Shown here in pieces: positions 6,558-15,801 of a stretch of DNA of 39,419 nt. Source of the DNA: an uncultured beta proteobacterium (GTDB lineage Bacteria > Pseudomonadota > Gammaproteobacteria > Burkholderiales > Rhodocyclaceae); assembly GCA_903959855.1 (NCBI GenBank), contig CAJBYR010000111.1, forward strand, positions 1 to 39,419. Reading direction: 5' to 3'. Positions within the stretch are counted from its first letter, which is position 1. Each line of letters opens with the position of its first letter. The translations under genes and the position numbers were made by a program. The notes below the pieces were generated by a model. It ran no database searches. It saw only the letters and a list, made by a program, of their open reading frames with translations, and had not been told where the DNA came from.

Positions 6558-9086
6558 ATGACCCTGCGCGGAAAGATCTGGCTTGCACTTGCCCTTCTGG
6601 CGGCAACCATTTCGCTGCTCGACCTCGGCTTCGAATACCGCCGCGCCGCCGCGGATCAGCATCGCGAGCAGCTGAATGATGCGCGCGGCATGGGCAACCT
6701 GCTGCTGGCGACGCGCCGCGTTTACCACGGGCAGGTCATCGACGGAAAGGCCGGCGACGGCTTCGTCGCCGAACTCGCCCTGGCGCGGATCTCGCGGGAA
6801 TTCTCGCGGATATACTCGGGCGGGGTGAGCTTCCGCAATGTCGCGGACCGGCCGCGCAATCCGGAGAACCAGGCCGACCGCTCCGAACTCGATGCCATCA
6901 AGTGGTTCCGCGACAACCCCGGGGCAGGCGAGCATTTGCAGCCCGTCGTCGACATGAGCGGCACCGCCCTGCTGCAGTACAGCCTGCCGCTGCGCATCGA
7001 GTCGTCCTGCCTGCAATGCCACGGCCCGTCCGGGCGCAATGCGGGAACCTCGCGGGGCGACGAATTCAAGGCCGGCGAAGTGCGCGGACTGATCAGCATC
7101 AAGCTGCCGATCACCCAGTACAAAGCTTTCGCCCTCGACCATTGGCTGAGCCGCCTGGGCTGGAGCCTGCCGGCCTATGCGCTGGTCTTCCTCGCCCTCG
7201 GCCTGTTGATGGATCGCCTGATACTGCGCCGCCTGGACCGCATTCGCGCCGGTACGCGACAATTCGCTGCCGGTGACGGCACGCTGCGCCTGGCGGATGC
7301 CGGCAACGACGAACTGGGCGAACTGGCGCAGGAACTGAACCAGATGGCCGACCAGGTCGCCGAGCGCACCGAAGCACTCGCCGCCAGCCGCGAGGAGCTC
7401 AGCCAGCATCGCGACCAGCTCGAGGAACAGGTCATCACACGCACCATCGAGCTGGCCTCGGCCAAGGAGGTTGCGGAAAAGGCCAATCTCGCCAAGAGCC
7501 GCTTCCTCGCCAACATCAGCCATGAAATCCGCACGCCGATGAACGCCATCATCGGCCTTACCCATCTCCTGCGGCGCAATGATCCGACGCCGGAACAGGC
7601 CGAACGCCTGGCCAAGGTCGACACCGCGGCCAACCATCTGCTGGCGGTAATCAACGACATCCTCGACATCTCCAAGATCGAGTCGGACACGATCGAGCTG
7701 GAACAGCAGGACTTCGCCCTGGGCGCGGTATTCGACCATGTGCGATCGCAAACCTTTGATGAAGCCAGGGCGCGCGACCTGGTGCTGGAAGTCGATGCCG
7801 GGTCGGTGCCGATGTGGCTGCGCGGCGACCCTCTGCGCCTGCGCCAGGCGCTGTACAACTATGTCTGCAACGCGATCAAGTTTTCCGAGCATGGCCGCAT
7901 CCGGCTGCACGCGATCCTGCTCGCGGAACAGGGCGACGAACTGCTGCTGCGCTTCGATGTCGAGGACAACGGCATCGGCGTCGAGGAAGCACAGCTATCC
8001 AGTCTGTTCCGCGCCTTCGAACAAGTCGATACCTCGGATACCCGCAGCTACGGCGGCACCGGGCTGGGCCTGGCCATCACGCGCCGCCTGGCCGAACTCA
8101 TGGGTGGCGAAGTCGGCGTCGAGAGCCGGCCCGGTCAAGGCAGCCGCTTCTGGTTCACCGCCCGCCTGCACCGTGGCCATGGCGTCATGCCGCCAGCGGC
8201 AGAGATCAGCACGGAAACCGCGGAAAGCGGACTGCGCCGCAACCACGGTGGTGCCAGGGTGCTGTTGGTCGAAGACAACGCGATCAACCGCGAAGTCGCG
8301 CTGGAACTGCTGTACGGCGCCGGCATGGACGCCGACATTGCCGTCGATGGCCGCGATGCGCTGGACAAGGCCGCCGCCAGGCGCTACCGGCTGATCCTGA
8401 TGGACGTGCAGATGCCGCGCATGGATGGCCTTGAAGCCACGCGCGCGATCCGCATGCTGCCGGGCAATCGTGAGATTCCCATCCTGGCGCTGACGGCCAA
8501 TGTTTACGAGGAGAACCGGCGTGCCTGCCATGACGCGGGGATGGACGATTTCGTCGCCAAACCCGTCAACCCCGAGGACCTGTATGCCGCCTTGCTGAAG
8601 TGGCTGCAGCGCAGCCCGCCGCCACCAGCCGGGCCGGAGCCTACGGCGCAGCGGTCAGCGCCAGCCAGGGCCGCCACCGGCCATGGCATCGCACCCGCGG
8701 TGCCGATGCGGGATGCCGAGGAATGGCGCCGACGCCTGCAGGCGGTTTCCGGCCTGGATTTCGAGCGCGGTCTTGACGTGGTGCGCGGCGATGTCCGTAC
8801 CTATTCGCGCATCCTCGCCCTGTTCGCCGAGACGCATTTCAAGGACATCGCACGGCTTGAGGAGTACCGTGTCGGCGGGAATATCGCGGCGCTCAAGGAA
8901 GTCTCCCATACGCTGAAGGGATCGGCCGGCAGCGTCGGCGCGCTGAAGCTCGCCGACGCATCCAAACACCTGCATGCCCTGATCCTCAAGGAAGGCCCGG
9001 CCGGGGAGATCGACGCCAGTTGCCGGGTCCTGGTCGCCAAGCTGGAAGCGACGATTGCGGAGTTGCGCGAGGCGCTGGGCGAATAA
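6558..9086 (+). CDS. Hybrid histidine kinase with c-type haem sensor domain and Hpt
   Basis: An 842 aa phosphorelay protein. An N-terminal TM is followed by a periplasmic DUF3365/Tll0287-like sensor domain carrying one c-haem site, CLQCH at 151-155. Next come a second TM (~190-215), a HAMP-like segment, a coiled coil, HisKA (His322 in SHEIRTP), an HATPase domain with DNGIGV and GGTGLGLAI, a receiver domain with Asp616 in LMDVQMP, and a C-terminal Hpt domain with His784 in HTLKGSAGS. The kinase therefore holds a complete His-Asp-His relay and needs an external response regulator. Haem implies redox or gas sensing (inference). It is in an operon with the GGDEF-EAL gene, 14 nt upstream. Confidence 0.92.
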
Positions 9087-9124
9087 GCGTCGCCCCAACA
9101 TCGCCGTAGCGCCGGCGCCGACTC

Positions 9125-10000
9125 TCAACCCGATCCGTTGCGCCGTCGCTCTGCGCCGGTGTGGTCCAGCCATTCGGCGACCATGGGCCAGAGATTCATT
9201 TCGCATTGCGGCTTGAAAAAGCCGAAATGGCCGATGCGCCTGAGCCCCTGTTGCGCGGGTTCGACCAGGCGGTAATCGACCTTGCGCTGGCGATAGGCCT
9301 CGTGCAGCAGGCGCGATCCGGCCTCGGCGAGCAACTCGTCGTCGGCGAAGCTCAGTGCCAGAACCGGGTAGTCTGCCGTGGCGTAGGCCTCGCGAGCACC
9401 GGGTTCGCCGCTCAGCAGGTACTCCGGGGTCAGGCACCAACGCCGCCACTGGTACATCGCAGCGGTAGGCAGGTCGCCGACAACGCCGATGCGTGAGCCG
9501 GGAAAATAGCCGAACACCGGGCACAGCGCGGGCGCGAGAACATGCCATAACAATGGTGCCGAACGCTTCGTGCGCGGCGACAGGTGGCGTGTCGAACCAC
9601 TGCCGACCGCGATGTTCACCACGCCGGCGAGGTGCTCGCGTGAAGGCAGCAAGGGCGCCACCTGGCCGCCGAAACTGTGGCCGACGACGAACAGCGGATC
9701 ATGGGGCGATGCCATCGTGATCATGCGCAGCAGCGCGTCGTAATCCTTGTGCAGCCAGTCGCCGAGGTCGGCCTTGATATGTCGGCGCGGCCCCTCGAAC
9801 GACTCGCCGATGCCGCGATAGTCAAAGGTCCAGGTGGTGTAGCCGCGCTTCGCCAGAAAGCATGCAAAGGGCGCGTAGAAGGCCTGCGGCACGGCCATCG
9901 CCGCGGCGATGACGACCTGGCCGCGCACCGGGCCGTGCGGGTCGAAACGATGAACGGCGAGTTTGTGGCCGTCGGTGGCGGTGAAGGGGATGCGCTGCAT
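9125..10000 (-). CDS. Alpha/beta hydrolase
   Basis: A 291 aa soluble alpha/beta hydrolase similar to the COG4757 group. The nucleophile elbow GHSFGG is clear, preceded by YRGIGES and by the N-terminal TDGHKLAVHRFDP. A candidate acid lies in LSFADDELL and a candidate His in RIGHFGFFKP near residue 256. There is no signal peptide. The substrate is unknown. Its ATG lies 9 nt downstream (minus strand) of a TAG that ends the left copy of a 14-bp repeat derived from the dnaE2 3' end. It was therefore probably the second gene of a dnaE2 operon before the R-M island inserted (inference). Confidence 0.85.
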   Translation of the reverse strand: MQRIPFTATDGHKLAVHRFDPHGPVRGQVVIAAAMAVPQAFYAPFACFLAKRGYTTWTFDYRGIGESFEGPRRHIKADLGDWLHKDYDALLRMITMASPHDPLFVVGHSFGGQVAPLLPSREHLAGVVNIAVGSGSTRHLSPRTKRSAPLLWHVLAPALCPVFGYFPGSRIGVVGDLPTAAMYQWRRWCLTPEYLLSGEPGAREAYATADYPVLALSFADDELLAEAGSRLLHEAYRQRKVDYRLVEPAQQGLRRIGHFGFFKPQCEMNLWPMVAEWLDHTGAERRRNGSG

Positions 10001-10010
10001 GCGCCAAGTC

Positions 10011-10024
10011 TAGTGAAAATCCCG
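10011..10024. repeat. Left 14-bp direct repeat of the R-M island
   Basis: Exact copy of TAGTGAAAATCCCG. On the minus strand it reads CGG GAT TTT CAC TA, completed to TAG by the next base, which reproduces the RDFH end of DnaE2. The hydrolase ATG follows 9 nt beyond that stop. Confidence 0.8.
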
Positions 10025-10173
10025 CCACCTAGACAGCGAAGTCTTTGCGGACCGATTCCGCGCGCAGGCATAATGAGACTCAGCATTTTGGAAGTGAGTA
10101 CGGCGTTATTGACGGCCCGCATGGCAATGGCTTTGTGTTGCAGTATTGCCCGCATTTTTCCAGGGATCATGAA

Positions 10174-10202
10174 TTGACATCCAGACAGCTCTACCTTGAT
10201 TT
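10174..10202 (+). promoter_or_regulatory. Possible promoter of the methyltransferase gene
   Basis: A perfect TTGACA lies at 10174-10179, with a poor -10 (TTGATT or TGATTT, 16-17 nt downstream). If used, the message would start close to the ATG at 10213. The weak -10 keeps confidence low. Confidence 0.25.
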
Positions 10203-10212
10203 GGATGGCGGA

Positions 10213-11907
10213 ATGGCTAGACCCCATTCCGCCAAGGTCGCAGCTGCGATCGAAAAGTTGTCCACCGCATCAGGATCCGAGTCTCGTGGTGCAATCTTCA
10301 CCCGCGTTGAAGTTGTCGAATTCATTCTTGACCTGCTTGGCTACACGGAAGACAAGCCACTAGCCCATCAGCGAATGCTGGAGCCATCATTCGGGGGCGG
10401 AGATTTTCTGCTACCTGCCGTAAGCCGCTTGCTGAGTGCCTGGCGAGCTGGATCGGGCAAAAAGTCGCCCTTGGAGGATCTCGGCGAGTCTATCCGTGCG
10501 GTGGAACTACACCGCGAGACTTTCGATGCAACTCGTGCTGCCGTAATCGCATTGTTAACGCAGGAAAACCTACCGCAATCAACCGCGCAAGACGTCGCCG
10601 ATCGCTGGCTAACGCATGACGATTTCCTGCTTACGGAACTTGACGGCCAGTTCGATTTTATTGTCGGCAATCCACCATATGTGCGTCAGGAAATGATTCC
10701 CGCAACCCTGCTGGAGGTTTACCGGAGCCGTTATCCAACCATGTACGACCGCGCTGACCTCTATATTCCGTTCATTGAGCGCTCCCTATCGCTCCTCTCG
10801 CAAGGCGGTAGCCTGGGCTTTATCTGCGCTGATCGCTGGATGAAGAATCGCTATGGTGGGCCACTGCGCAACCTGGTCGCCGAGCAGTTCCACATGAAGA
10901 TTTATATCGACATGGTCGACACCCCTGCCTTTCATTCCAATGTGATCGCCTATCCCGCGATCACCGTCATTAGCCGGGAGAAGCCCGGTGCGACGCGCAT
11001 TGCGCATCGACCGGCCATTGACCGGGCGACCCTAACCAAGCTGTCTGAAATGCTTCGCGCCACTGACCTGCCGAAGAATTGCAGTACGGTCCGCGAGCTC
11101 TCAAGTGTCACCAATGCCGCTGAACCGTGGCTCCTGGAATCGGCGGACCAGATGGTCCTCATCAGGCGGATTGAGCAGCAGTTCCCGACCTTGCAGGAAG
11201 CTGGTTGCATCGTAGGCATAGGAGTCGCGACCGGCGCGGACAAAGCCTTCATCGGTGACTTTGAAGACCTCGATGTCGAAGCGGATCGCAAGCTGCCATT
11301 GGTGACGACTCGCGACATCGCGTCGGGCGAGGTCAATTGGCAGGGACAGGGGGTCATCAATCCATTTGCCGAAAATGGCGGTCTGGTTGATCTGAAGGAT
11401 TACCCTCGTCTGCGCCGCTACCTGGAAGCCCGGCAGGAGGTCATCTCCGGTCGCCATTGCGCGCAGAAATCGCCGGGCAACTGGTATCGCACCATCGACC
11501 GGATCACACCGGCGCTCGCAAAAAAGCCCAAGCTCCTGATCCCCGACATCAAGGGCGAAGCCCATATCGTTTTCGAGGCTGGCAAGCTGTATCCGCATCA
11601 CAATCTTTATTACCTGACGTCCGAAGAATGGAACTTGAGGGCCTTGCAGGCCGTGATGCTTTCTGCCGTCACCCGCCTCTTTGTGGCAACCTATTCAACA
11701 AAGATGCGAGGCGGCTTTCTTAGGTTCCAGGCGCAATACCTCAGACGTCTGCGCCTTCCGCACTGGCGCAGCGTTTCCGAATCGCTGCGGATCGAACTGA
11801 TCGAGGCAGCGACAAAACGGGATATACAGGCCTGCAACCGCGCAGCATTCAAGCTGTATGGCCTCAGTCACGAAGAAAAATCTGGCCTTGGAGGCAATGG
11901 AAGCTAA
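10213..11907 (+). CDS. Type II DNA adenine methyltransferase, M.PaeR7I/M.XhoI-like
   Basis: N6-adenine methyltransferase, 564 aa from the ATG at 10213. The track begins at a TTG at 10045 and adds 56 residues without family features; GGATGG before 10213 can serve as ribosome site. The AdoMet motif FGGGDFLL and the catalytic NPPYVRQEM tetrapeptide are visible, preceded by [21 protein letters not shown] as in Eco57I-type enzymes. The C-terminal half is the likely target-recognition region. It ends exactly where the endonuclease gene begins (TAA then ATG). It should protect host sites from the partner enzyme, predicted CTCGAG. GC content is lower than in flanking genes, in line with horizontal transfer. 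Confidence 0.9.
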
Positions 11908-12648
11908 ATGGCGCTTGACCTTGTCGATTACGAACAAATGGCCCGCAAGGCGGTAAAGGCATTCTGGAAGAAACGGAAAGTCGCCACGCAAAAGCAGATT
12001 GAATCCGGCAAGGCCGACCAAGGCGAACGTGCAGGCGTCACCAGCGGCAAGAACATGGATGGCTTCATTGCCCTGATACTTGCCATTGTCCGAGCGAACG
12101 GATTGGCACATGCCGAAATTCACCTGAAGCGTGCTGTATTGACCCTGCCGGGTTACTTCAGACCAACCAAGCTCTGGGACATCCTGGTCATCCACAAGGG
12201 TGAACTGATCGCTGCAATTGAGCTGAAGAGCCAGGTGGGCCCTTCATTCGGAAACAACTTCAACAATCGTACCGAAGAAGCCATCGGTACCGCGCACGAT
12301 CTCTGGACAGCCTACCGTGAAGAAGCTTTCGGCAAACAGCCACGCCCCTTTATAGGCTGGCTGATGATGGTTGAGGATGCTCCCAAGTCCAGATCACCGG
12401 TCAAGGATACGTCGCCGCATTTCCCGGTTTTTCCGGAGTTCAAAAATGCGTCCTATCTCGAGCGATATGACCTGCTTTGCCAAAAACTGGTGCAGGAACA
12501 GCTTTACACCACGGCCAACCTTATTACGTCGAAGCGCAGTGCTGCCGCCCACGGCGAGTTTTCTGAGCTGTCGGCAATGACCGGACTCAAAACTTTTGTC
12601 ACGGCGCTGGCTGGGCACGTTGCTGCGGAGGCGGCGCGGCTTGGGTGA
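11908..12648 (+). CDS. Type II restriction endonuclease, PaeR7I-like (predicted CTCGAG)
   Basis: The 246 aa protein strongly resembles PaeR7I, an XhoI isoschizomer of the same length. Distinctive stretches are [35 protein letters not shown], and [23 protein letters not shown]-(D/E)xK-like catalytic core is suggested by KLWDILV followed by AAIELKSQ. The ATG directly follows the methyltransferase stop, so the two are probably coupled. Predicted specificity is CTCGAG, by family resemblance only. It converges on dnaE2 with 33 nt between stops. There is no controller-protein gene. A CTCGAG site occurs inside this gene at 12457-12462. Confidence 0.9.
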
Positions 12649-12681
12649 AATACCGCAGTAAAGTTGGTGTAGCGGATGCAC

Positions 12682-15600
12682 TTAGTGAAAATCCCGGCTG
12701 CCGGTCAGAAGCCCGCCGAGCAATTCGCTGTGGTCGAACAGTCGCTTGGCGACGAGGTGCACCACGGCGTGCTCGCCTTCGCCTTGCACCTGCAACTGGC
12801 CAGCCACTCCGAGCAGGCGGCTGCCGAGCAAGAGTCGGCGCTGACGGCACGCCAAATCATTGAATACCACGATGTTGGCGCTACCGGTTTCGTCTTCCAG
12901 GGTGACGAAGATCACGCCGCTGGCGGTACCCGGGCGCTGGCGGCAGGTGACGATGCCGGCGCAGCGCACCACGGCGCGGTCGCCGCAGTTGCGCAGTTCC
13001 ATGGCCGGGAGGTAGCGCTTCGCCGCCAGCCGCGTGCGCAACAGCGCCAGCGGGTGGCGGCCGAGCGTGAGGCCGAGGCTGCCGTAGTCGGCGACGATCT
13101 CTTCGCCTTCGCGCGGCGCGGCGAAAACCACGTCCGCGTCATTCAGTGCCATGCCGGCGAAGAGGTCGCGCTGCAGCGGCACGGCGGCAGCGGCCCAGGC
13201 GGCCTGGCGACGATGGCCGGCCAGCTGCCGCAGCGCCCCGCCGGCCGCGAGCAGGTCAAGGTCGCCCTGGCCAAGCTCGGCACGGCGCGCGAGATCGGCG
13301 AGGTCGGTAAAGGGCGCTTCATCACGCGCACCGACGATGCGCTCGCCGGCCGCAGTGGAGAAGCCGCGCAACTGCTGCAGGCCGAGGCGCACCGCCGCCA
13401 GGCCCTCGCCTTCCAGCGTGCATTCGCATGCGCTGGCCGTGACATCGACGGGCCGTACCTCGATGCCGTGGCGGCGCGCGTCCTGCACCAGTTGCGAAGG
13501 CGAGTAGAAGCCCATCGGCTGCGAGTTGAGCAGGCCGAGCAGGAAGGCTGCCGGCTCGTGGTGCTTGAGCCAGGCCGAGACATAGACCAGCAGGGCGAAG
13601 CTGGCGGCATGCGACTCGGGGAAGCCGTATTCGCCGAAGCCCTGGATCTGGCGATAAAGCGCCTCGGCGAATTCGTCGGCGTAGCCTCGATCACGCATCC
13701 CGGAAAGCAGGCGCTCGCGGAAGGGCTCCAGCCCGCCCTTGCGCTTCCAGGCCGCCATGGCGCGACGCAACTGGTCGGCCTCGCCCGGCGTGAAGCCGGC
13801 GGCGACGATGGCCAGCTGCATCGCCTGCTCCTGGAAGATGGGCACGCCCAGGGTGCGCGACAGCACCTCGCGCACCGCCACGCTGGGATACGCCACCGGC
13901 TCCAATCCTTGCCGCCGGCGCAGGTAGGGATGGACCATGTTGCCCTGGATCGGGCCGGGGCGCACCAGCGCCACCTCGATCACCAGGTCGTAGAAGCAGG
14001 CCGGCCGCAAGCGCGGCAGCATCGCCATCTGCGCGCGCGACTCGACCTGGAACACGCCGACGGTATCGGCGCGCGACACCATCGCGTAAGTCGCCGCATC
14101 CTCGGCCGGCACCTCGGCCAGCCCGAACGGCGTGCCATGCCGCCGCGCCACGGCCGCCAGCATGCGGCGGATCGCCGAGAGCATGCCCAGGGCCAGCACG
14201 TCGACCTTCATCAGGCCCAGCGCGTCGATGTCGTCCTTGTCCCACTGGATCACGGTGCGTTCCGGCATGGCGGCGTTTTCCACCGGCACCAGGCGGTCGA
14301 GGCGGCCGCGTGCAATGACGAAGCCGCCGACATGCTGTGTCAGGTGGCGCGGGAAGCCGATCAGCATTTTGGCGATGCCCAACCAGCGCCGCACCGCGGG
14401 ATCGTCCGGATCGAGGCCGACTTCGGCAAAGCGCTGCGCCAGTTCCTCGCGCTTCTCCCACCAGGCCAGGTTGCCGGCCAGGCGCTCGATCGCGGCCAGC
14501 GGAAAGCCCAGCGCGCGCCCGGCATCGCGCAAGGCGCCGCGGGTGCGCCAGGTGATCACCGCGGCGGCCAGCGCGGCACGCTCGCGGCCGTATTTGGCAT
14601 AGATGTACTGGATCACCTCCTCGCGCCGCTGGTGCTCGAAATCGACATCGATGTCGGGCGGCTCGTTGCGCTCCTTCGAGACGAAGCGCTCGAACAGCAT
14701 GCTGGCGCGCGCCGGATCGACCTCGGTGACGAAGAGCGCGTAGCAGACCGCCGAGTTGGCCGCCGAGCCGCGCCCCTGGCAAAGTATCCCCTGCGCTCGC
14801 GCCCAGGCCACGATGTCGTGTACGGTGAGGAAATAGGGCGCATAGGCCATCGCGGCGATCAGCGCCAGTTCGTGCTCGACCTGCGCCAATACCTTGTCCG
14901 GCACGCCGCCGGGATAGCGCCGCGCCAGTCCCTCCTCGCTCAGCCGCCGCAGCCAGGAATCCGGCGTCTGGCCCGGAGGTACGACTTCCTCGGGGTATTC
15001 GTAGCGCAGCTCGGCCAGCGAAAAGTTGCACAACGCCGCGACCTTCACGGTTTCGGCCAGCAGTTCAGGCGGATACAGGCGCGCCAGCGCCAGGCGCGAG
15101 CGCAGGTGGCGCTCGCCGTTGGGGAACAATGCATGGCCGGCTGCCGCCACCGTGGTATTAAGGCGCAATGCGGTCAGTGCATCCTGCACGGGCCGGCGCG
15201 AGCGCGCATGCATGTGCGCGTCGCCGGCCGCCACCAGCGGCAGCGATACGGCAGCAGCAATTTCGCGCAGCGCGGCGAGACGCTCGTGGTCGTCGGGCCG
15301 CAAGTGGCGCTCGAAGGCAATCCAGGCGCGGCTTGCGAAATGATCCGCCATCCACTGCGCCTGGTCGCGCCAGTCGGCCCTGTTCTCGCCACAGGGCAGC
15401 CACAGCGCCAGGCAGTCCGGCACGCCGCCGCCGTCCCAGCCGGCGAGGTCATGGCGCGTCAACTGGTAGCTGCCTTTTCCCGCGCGCCGCCGGCCCAGCG
15501 TGGCCAGCGCCGCGAGATTGCCGTAACCGGCGCGATTGCGCGCCAGCAACACCAGTTTCATGCCGCAAACGAGCCGCAGCTCGGTGCCGTGGATCAGTGT

Positions 15601-15801
15601 GAGCCCGAGGCCGCGCGCCGCGAGATGGGCGCGCACGCTGCCGGCAAAGCTGCATTCGTCGGTGACCGCCAGCGCCGCGTAGCCGAGTTCCACCGCCCGC
15701 GCCACCAGCTCCCCGGCGTGCGAAGCGCCGCGCAGGAAGCTGAAGTTGGACAGGCAGTGGAGTTCGGCGTAGGGCGGGAGGGAGGTCGTGGCAGGCTCGA
15801 T
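12682..15801 (-). CDS. dnaE2: Error-prone DNA polymerase DnaE2 (ImuC)
   Basis: Catalytic polymerase of the SOS mutasome, expected to act with ImuA and ImuB on damaged templates. The order is PHP domain ([18 protein letters not shown] and [14 protein letters not shown]), C-family polymerase core with catalytic aspartates in PDIDVDFEH and [10 protein letters not shown], then a C-terminal OB-fold region ending in the family-typical SRDFH. In-frame coding similarity reaches upstream of the track start (GTG at 15705), but no ATG, GTG or TTG exists between an in-frame TAA and that conserved segment. ATC at 15801 is used here as a provisional start (1039 aa). A LexA box lies 2 nt upstream of it. The 3' end abuts the R-M island. 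Confidence 0.93.
12683..12696. repeat. Right 14-bp direct repeat of the R-M island
   Basis: Exact TAGTGAAAATCCCG, forming the last four DnaE2 codons (RDFH) and the first two bases of the TAA stop on the minus strand. It pairs with the copy at 10011-10024. Confidence 0.8.

Follow-up and report, generated by a model that had tools for sequence, protein, structure and literature searches.

The window analysed here is one whole contig of 39,419 bases from a draft genome of 347 contigs, in which dnaE2 and an alpha/beta hydrolase gene are separated by a two-gene restriction-modification (R-M) cassette. dnaE2 (12682..15705, minus strand) encodes an error-prone DNA polymerase of at least 1007 aa (NF004225, 1430 bits) and is intact to its conserved SRDFH end. 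The hydrolase gene (9125..10000, minus strand, 291 aa, Pfam Abhydrolase/Hydrolase_4) is the native downstream neighbour of dnaE2, since in the congener G030 a hydrolase 86% identical to it lies directly after dnaE2. The inserted stretch, comprising the cassette and its flanking sequence (10025..12682, plus strand, 2658 bp), is missing from G030. The only ORFs between its borders are two adjacent ones, an Eco57I-type N6-adenine DNA methyltransferase with the motif NPPY (10045..11907, plus strand; PF07669, E 2e-25; PADLOC MTase_II, 882 bits) and a restriction endonuclease of the XhoI/PaeR7I family (11908..12648, plus strand, 246 aa; PF04555, 345 bits; PADLOC REase_II). With an endonuclease beside an N6-adenine methyltransferase, the pair is an XhoI/PaeR7I-type type II R-M system, and by analogy with its family it would recognize CTCGAG. 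Both R-M genes are open in the window. The ATG used by the methylases of relatives is out of frame here after loss of one base (ATGAATTGACATCC at 10165-10180, compared with ATGAACTTGACATCT in G004), a TTG at 10174 is in frame with the methylase, and homologues align from about residue 40-65; the methylase of the window probably starts at this TTG.

The cassette is flanked by two exact copies of the 14-mer TAGTGAAAATCCCG, at 10011-10024 and 12683-12696, and no third copy was found in the 39 kb at up to two mismatches (shuffle expectation 0.06). Each copy, read on the minus strand, encodes RDFH (CGG GAT TTT CAC) and then a stop codon. The right copy is the present 3′ end of dnaE2, with the stop TAA at 12684-12682, and the left copy, whose stop TAG lies 9 nt from the hydrolase ATG (10000), is the displaced native 3′ end, in the same TAGACT context as in the empty site of G030. 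As exact 14-mer repeats are common by composition in this GC-rich window, where 73 different ones recur, the length of the repeat alone proves nothing, and its position and the empty site carry the argument. Between the two 14-mers GC content falls to 0.557, whereas the window as a whole has 0.655 and dnaE2 0.699, and no other 2.6-kb stretch of the contig has a GC as low. A search with PF00589 gave no tyrosine integrase on the 39,419-base contig; tyrosine integrases are present elsewhere in the genome. None of the inverted repeats listed within 9000-14000 sits at the cassette ends, and the imperfect terminal inverted repeats of a transposon-like R-M unit are thus lacking. The first-pass annotation had described this locus correctly as to the repeat and its translation, the 9-nt spacing, the low GC of the R-M genes and the lack of a recombinase in the island.

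It had also predicted that removal of the cassette with one repeat would restore a dnaE2-hydrolase operon, and comparison with cassette-free relatives bears this out. In G030, dnaE2 is followed by a single CGGGATTTTCACTAG, then 9 nt and the hydrolase gene. When the cassette and one repeat were removed from the window, identity to G030 across the joint was 128/149, as against 85-87 when the joint was shifted by one base, and the flanks of the two genomes are colinear over 10 kb at 87% identity. Uninterrupted dnaE2-hydrolase adjacency was also found in G018, G015, G027 and G001; neither an empty locus with two copies of the 14-mer nor a general want of this adjacency was encountered. Carriers can be paired with a close relative that has the uninterrupted pair (G000 with G030, G007 with G018) or that lacks this R-M system (G004 with G009, G028 with G023). 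The empty site, the identity across the joint and the colinear flanks therefore demonstrate that the R-M cassette is an insertion between dnaE2 and its native operon partner, the hydrolase gene.

Insertion at this point recurs within the genus, which belongs to the Rhodocyclaceae. In a comparison of genomes that are nearly all draft MAG-type assemblies, the two-gene R-M cassette was found directly after dnaE2, always in one orientation, in six of the 31 congeners (G000, G004, G005, G007, G010 and G028), and close cassettes were found at other loci in G006 of this genus and in G165 of another. Outside the genus, none of about 80 XhoI-type R-M loci from many phyla adjoins dnaE2, which rules out that XhoI-type R-M genes target dnaE2 generally. 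The number of R-M insertion events at the dnaE2 end may lie anywhere from one to six. Decay of the cassette is visible in two carriers, where the endonuclease is broken by an in-frame TGA (G005, L044 1605-2342) or by a frameshift (G010, L041 9912-10647) and the methylase is open.

The first-pass annotation was right that the island carries R-M genes, but it missed unrelated defence cargos at the same spot in two further congeners. In G025 (G025:C63, L042 9318-14674) a 5.6-kb insert with a GC of 0.51-0.55 lies between dnaE2 and a dnaE2 stub and encodes a C5 DNA methylase, an ORC-CDC6-like ATPase (PF24389) and a protein matching the PADLOC CARF6 model (362 bits); no restriction enzyme was recognized among these three genes, and this low-GC locus is possibly an uncharacterized defence system. 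In G012 (G012:C29, L062 177-2112) a GmrSD_N-domain protein, with NsnA as its top PADLOC match, is followed by a dnaE2 3′ stub. The G012 insert, which is spread over two contigs, also contains a 211-aa ORF without a Pfam match, and its stub precedes an acyl-CoA ligase gene, which in G009, G004 and G021 is found downstream of dnaE2 itself. No recombinase or integrase was found among the ORFs of the G025 and G012 inserts inspected. Because both cargos are unrelated to the R-M genes, a single genus has seen no fewer than three separate insertion events that come with a dnaE2 stub. Two other arrangements beside dnaE2 were seen without a dnaE2 stub: a caspase-domain (Peptidase C14) protein gene of normal GC between dnaE2 and the hydrolase gene in G022 (G022:C86, L051 6630-8546), and a PIN-domain toxin-like pair in G023.

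The search for islands downstream of dnaE2 with a duplicated 3′ end, proposed in the first-pass annotation, yielded eight occupied loci, the six R-M carriers and the loci of G025 and G012, and in five of them a longer duplicate of the dnaE2 3′ end has been kept beyond the insert. These stubs start at about codon 889 in G028, 923 in G004, 925 in G007, 948 in G012 and 977 in G025, with one further start at about codon 1004. In G004, G007 and G028 the stub lies on the methylase side of the cassette, and its alignment score exceeds 500 of 500 shuffles in each case; the duplication in G028 probably extends up to about 360 bp, and the G007 stub has an internal deletion, yet ends in RDFH-TAG before the hydrolase gene. 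A fresh case is G025, with a direct repeat of 101 bp (99/101 identical, 98%) running from codon 977 to 4 nt beyond the stop. Since the G025 stub and the dnaE2 of the same genome have a private arginine-to-histidine variant in common, the stub is a duplicate of its own host's dnaE2. The G012 stub (approximately codons 948-1006) is closer to the dnaE2 of other species than to its own (bootstrap 946/1000), which is not what one would expect if G012 had simply duplicated its own target. The search for dnaE2 remnants gave none for G005, whose contig ends inside the methylase, or for G010.

The 14-bp repeat of the window is the shortest duplication among the loci. Because the duplicates at sister loci are far longer or different, it marks the lower end of a range of target-duplication lengths, and the idea of the 14-mer as a fixed integration core, as implied by the first-pass annotation, is not supported. 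The accompanying proposal, that the dnaE2 3′ end serves as a target which leaves the polymerase intact, holds in its first part, the end being a recurrent insertion site, and fails in G004 (G004:C107, L061 9121-9300), where dnaE2 breaks off before SRDFH as it meets the cassette and its frame continues into the endonuclease gene in antisense. The G004 insertion therefore removed the last dnaE2 codons, and the polymerase is not always kept intact. Beside the left 14-mer of the window, decayed dnaE2 was sought and rejected, the alignment being no better than shuffles; the sequence there belongs to the cassette, because G165 has it with the cassette at another locus. As a control, the DnaE1 tail gave one weak extra fragment in the genus (G019, E 8e-4) and a second full-length tail on another contig (G021). 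In other genera of the family a second match to the dnaE2 tail was obtained in one genome only (G133), with a genus-specific query that would miss diverged stubs, and family-wide duplication of the dnaE2 tail was dropped as a candidate at that sensitivity.

To follow the descent of the cassette, its tree was compared with a host tree built from rpoB and from dnaE2 without its 3′ end. The dnaE2-site cassettes form one supported group with those of G006 and G165, within which G007 pairs with G165 (100/99). In the host tree G000 and G007 fall in one clade and G005 and G010 stand together, whereas AU tests on the R-M tree reject G000+G007 (p 0.012), G005+G010 (p 3e-5) and monophyly of the dnaE2-site cassettes (p 0.0004). 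This conflict indicates that the cassette has moved laterally. The spacer between the endonuclease stop and the dnaE2 stop is homologous in G000, G005 and G028 (0-1 of 1000 shuffles for these three; the shuffle count is weak for G004, G007 and G010), so that the dnaE2-side junction of the three has a common descent, which speaks against six fresh insertions. The left cassette ends are related in G000, G010 and G007, and the R-M genes have diverged roughly in step with their hosts.

We favour, with a probability of roughly 0.6, the reading that the dnaE2 3′ end is a hotspot at which recombinase-less defence cassettes insert with variable target duplication. A small anti-phage cassette without a recombinase would arrive by horizontal transfer and be joined just after the dnaE2 stop, or within a few codons of it, and a variable 3′ stretch of dnaE2 would be duplicated, one copy completing the gene and the other being stranded on the far side, where it would decay. 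The joining itself would be illegitimate or homology-assisted recombination of the repair type and not an integrase reaction, and the cassette might be retained through R-M addiction together with the neutrality of the insertion point. At the junctions, the dnaE2-side joint at the stop is nearly constant and the far joint is variable and lies inside the dnaE2 3′ end. A single-repeat empty site, a target duplication that is variable and long at sister loci, and the lack of both recombinase and insertion sequence place the locus with known R-M insertions with long target duplication. The hotspot reading is favoured because of these R-M precedents and because direct repeats flank other loci of the same R-M family, being found within 1 kb at 5/68 XhoI-type R-M loci compared with 2/233 shifted controls.

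The nearly constant dnaE2-side junction and the variable far junction would also result if a donor dnaE2 3′ end, arriving together with the cassette, recombined homologously in the recipient dnaE2 while the other side was closed illegitimately (homology-facilitated illegitimate recombination), stranding the recipient's own 3′ end. Short shared motifs at the far junctions (CGCTGGC in G004, TGCGCA in G028), the position of the native TAGACT context, next to the hydrolase gene in G000 and G007, and the likeness of the G012 remnant to other species all agree with such a one-sided import, which we consider possible, if tentative. However, when carriers are compared with cassette-free relatives, identity does not fall towards the dnaE2 3′ end; import of the dnaE2 tail from the R-M donor was rejected as a candidate on this ground, and only a very short tail, or one from a near relative, could have been imported. 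The private variant in both G025 copies also speaks against it. More doubtful is a single ancient R-M insertion in the ancestor of the genus, followed by vertical descent and many losses, often precise ones through the duplicated dnaE2 ends. The identical position and orientation in all six carriers, the spacer homology, the related left ends and the roughly parallel divergence of R-M genes and hosts speak for it, and the direct repeats would permit scarless loss. The rejected groupings in the R-M tree, with G165, from another genus and another locus, nesting with G007, are nevertheless difficult to reconcile with vertical descent, and the unrelated cargos of G025 and G012 at the same end are left unexplained.

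At phage 21/e14 in icd and at similar islands, a copied 3′ end keeps the target gene and the displaced end stays on the far side, and dnaE2 is likewise kept by a 3′-end copy with its displaced end beyond the insert. The stranded ends, the near invariance of the last dnaE2 codons at the nucleotide level within the genus and the tyrosine integrases elsewhere in the genome could point to site-specific integration by a tyrosine or serine recombinase, with the dnaE2 3′ end as attB, an element carrying the replacement 3′ end, and an integrase that was lost or acted in trans. Unlike those islands, however, the cassettes at dnaE2 are only a few kb long and have neither an integrase gene, in any insert inspected, nor a constant crossover core, as the remnants begin at scattered codons, although later deletions could blur a common start. 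Because of these scattered crossover points, and because dnaE2 of G004 lost SRDFH and was not restored, we regard an integrase as unlikely. That the repeat is a chance 14-mer or the locus a metagenome assembly artefact is hardly credible: recurring 14-mers are plentiful in the window and the genome is a draft, but it is contradicted by a relative whose empty site matches exactly and by the repetition of the arrangement in six separately assembled genomes.

The hotspot reading joins a known kind of event to an arrangement for which we found no description in the literature, namely a single gene end at which unrelated cargos have inserted repeatedly without an integrase; no paper naming dnaE2 as an integration site or defence hotspot appeared in our literature searches. 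In Helicobacter, R-M genes were reported to insert with target duplications that are long and of variable length (Nobusato, Uchiyama, Ohashi and Kobayashi 2000, as cited in PMC1643837, PMC3031569 and PMC3874152). The Helicobacter insertions resemble the present locus in being recombinase-less type II units with variable direct target repeats (on the order of 100 bp) and an empty site in a relative, and differ from it in that here one chromosomal spot is reused in a genus, also by unrelated defence cargos. The PaeR7I R-M cassette, whose specificity family includes the system of the window, moved in E. coli mostly in linkage with IS elements and in some cases through reciprocal joins with 1-3 bp of identity (PMC3031569); unlike in that IS-dependent laboratory movement, no insertion sequence flanks the window cassette. 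Different defence systems are found at the dnaE2 end, as they are at defence integration hotspots, for example in the E. coli pan-genome, where they exchange at one locus (PMC10121019), but here they sit at the end of a gene for an SOS-type polymerase, with no mobile element in sight. The short, well-defined dnaE2 site bears on how small recombinase-less R-M and defence cassettes enter chromosomes, because close relatives offer several unrelated cassettes there, along with empty sites and both a fresh duplication of 101 bp and older, decayed ones. The insertion mechanism can be read off its junctions and put to the test by comparing strains. The site further connects the turnover of defence genes with the end of a gene for a mutagenic repair polymerase, and dnaE2-end stubs provide a search handle for new defence systems.

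A more speculative proposal, which we hold with little confidence, is that the conserved tail AGCCGGGATTTTCA is itself the true target, recognized or favoured by an undescribed, cassette-independent route that would take unrelated defence cassettes and duplicate the end of the SOS polymerase gene, possibly in connection with damage-induced transcription or repair. On the tail itself, the last dnaE2 codons, AGC CGG (G/A)AT TTT CA(C/T), hardly vary at synonymous positions across the genus, though GC3 of the gene is 0.86, and codon 1006 is TTT in 20 of 23 cases; such conservation may reflect a constraint on the nucleotides themselves where the cassettes insert. Two further XhoI-type R-M loci are flanked by long direct repeats that are candidate target duplications, one pair of 183 bp and 91% identity (L120, 5651-5833 and 8740-8922) and one of 740 bp and 92% identity (L136, 4753-5487 and 9050-9781).
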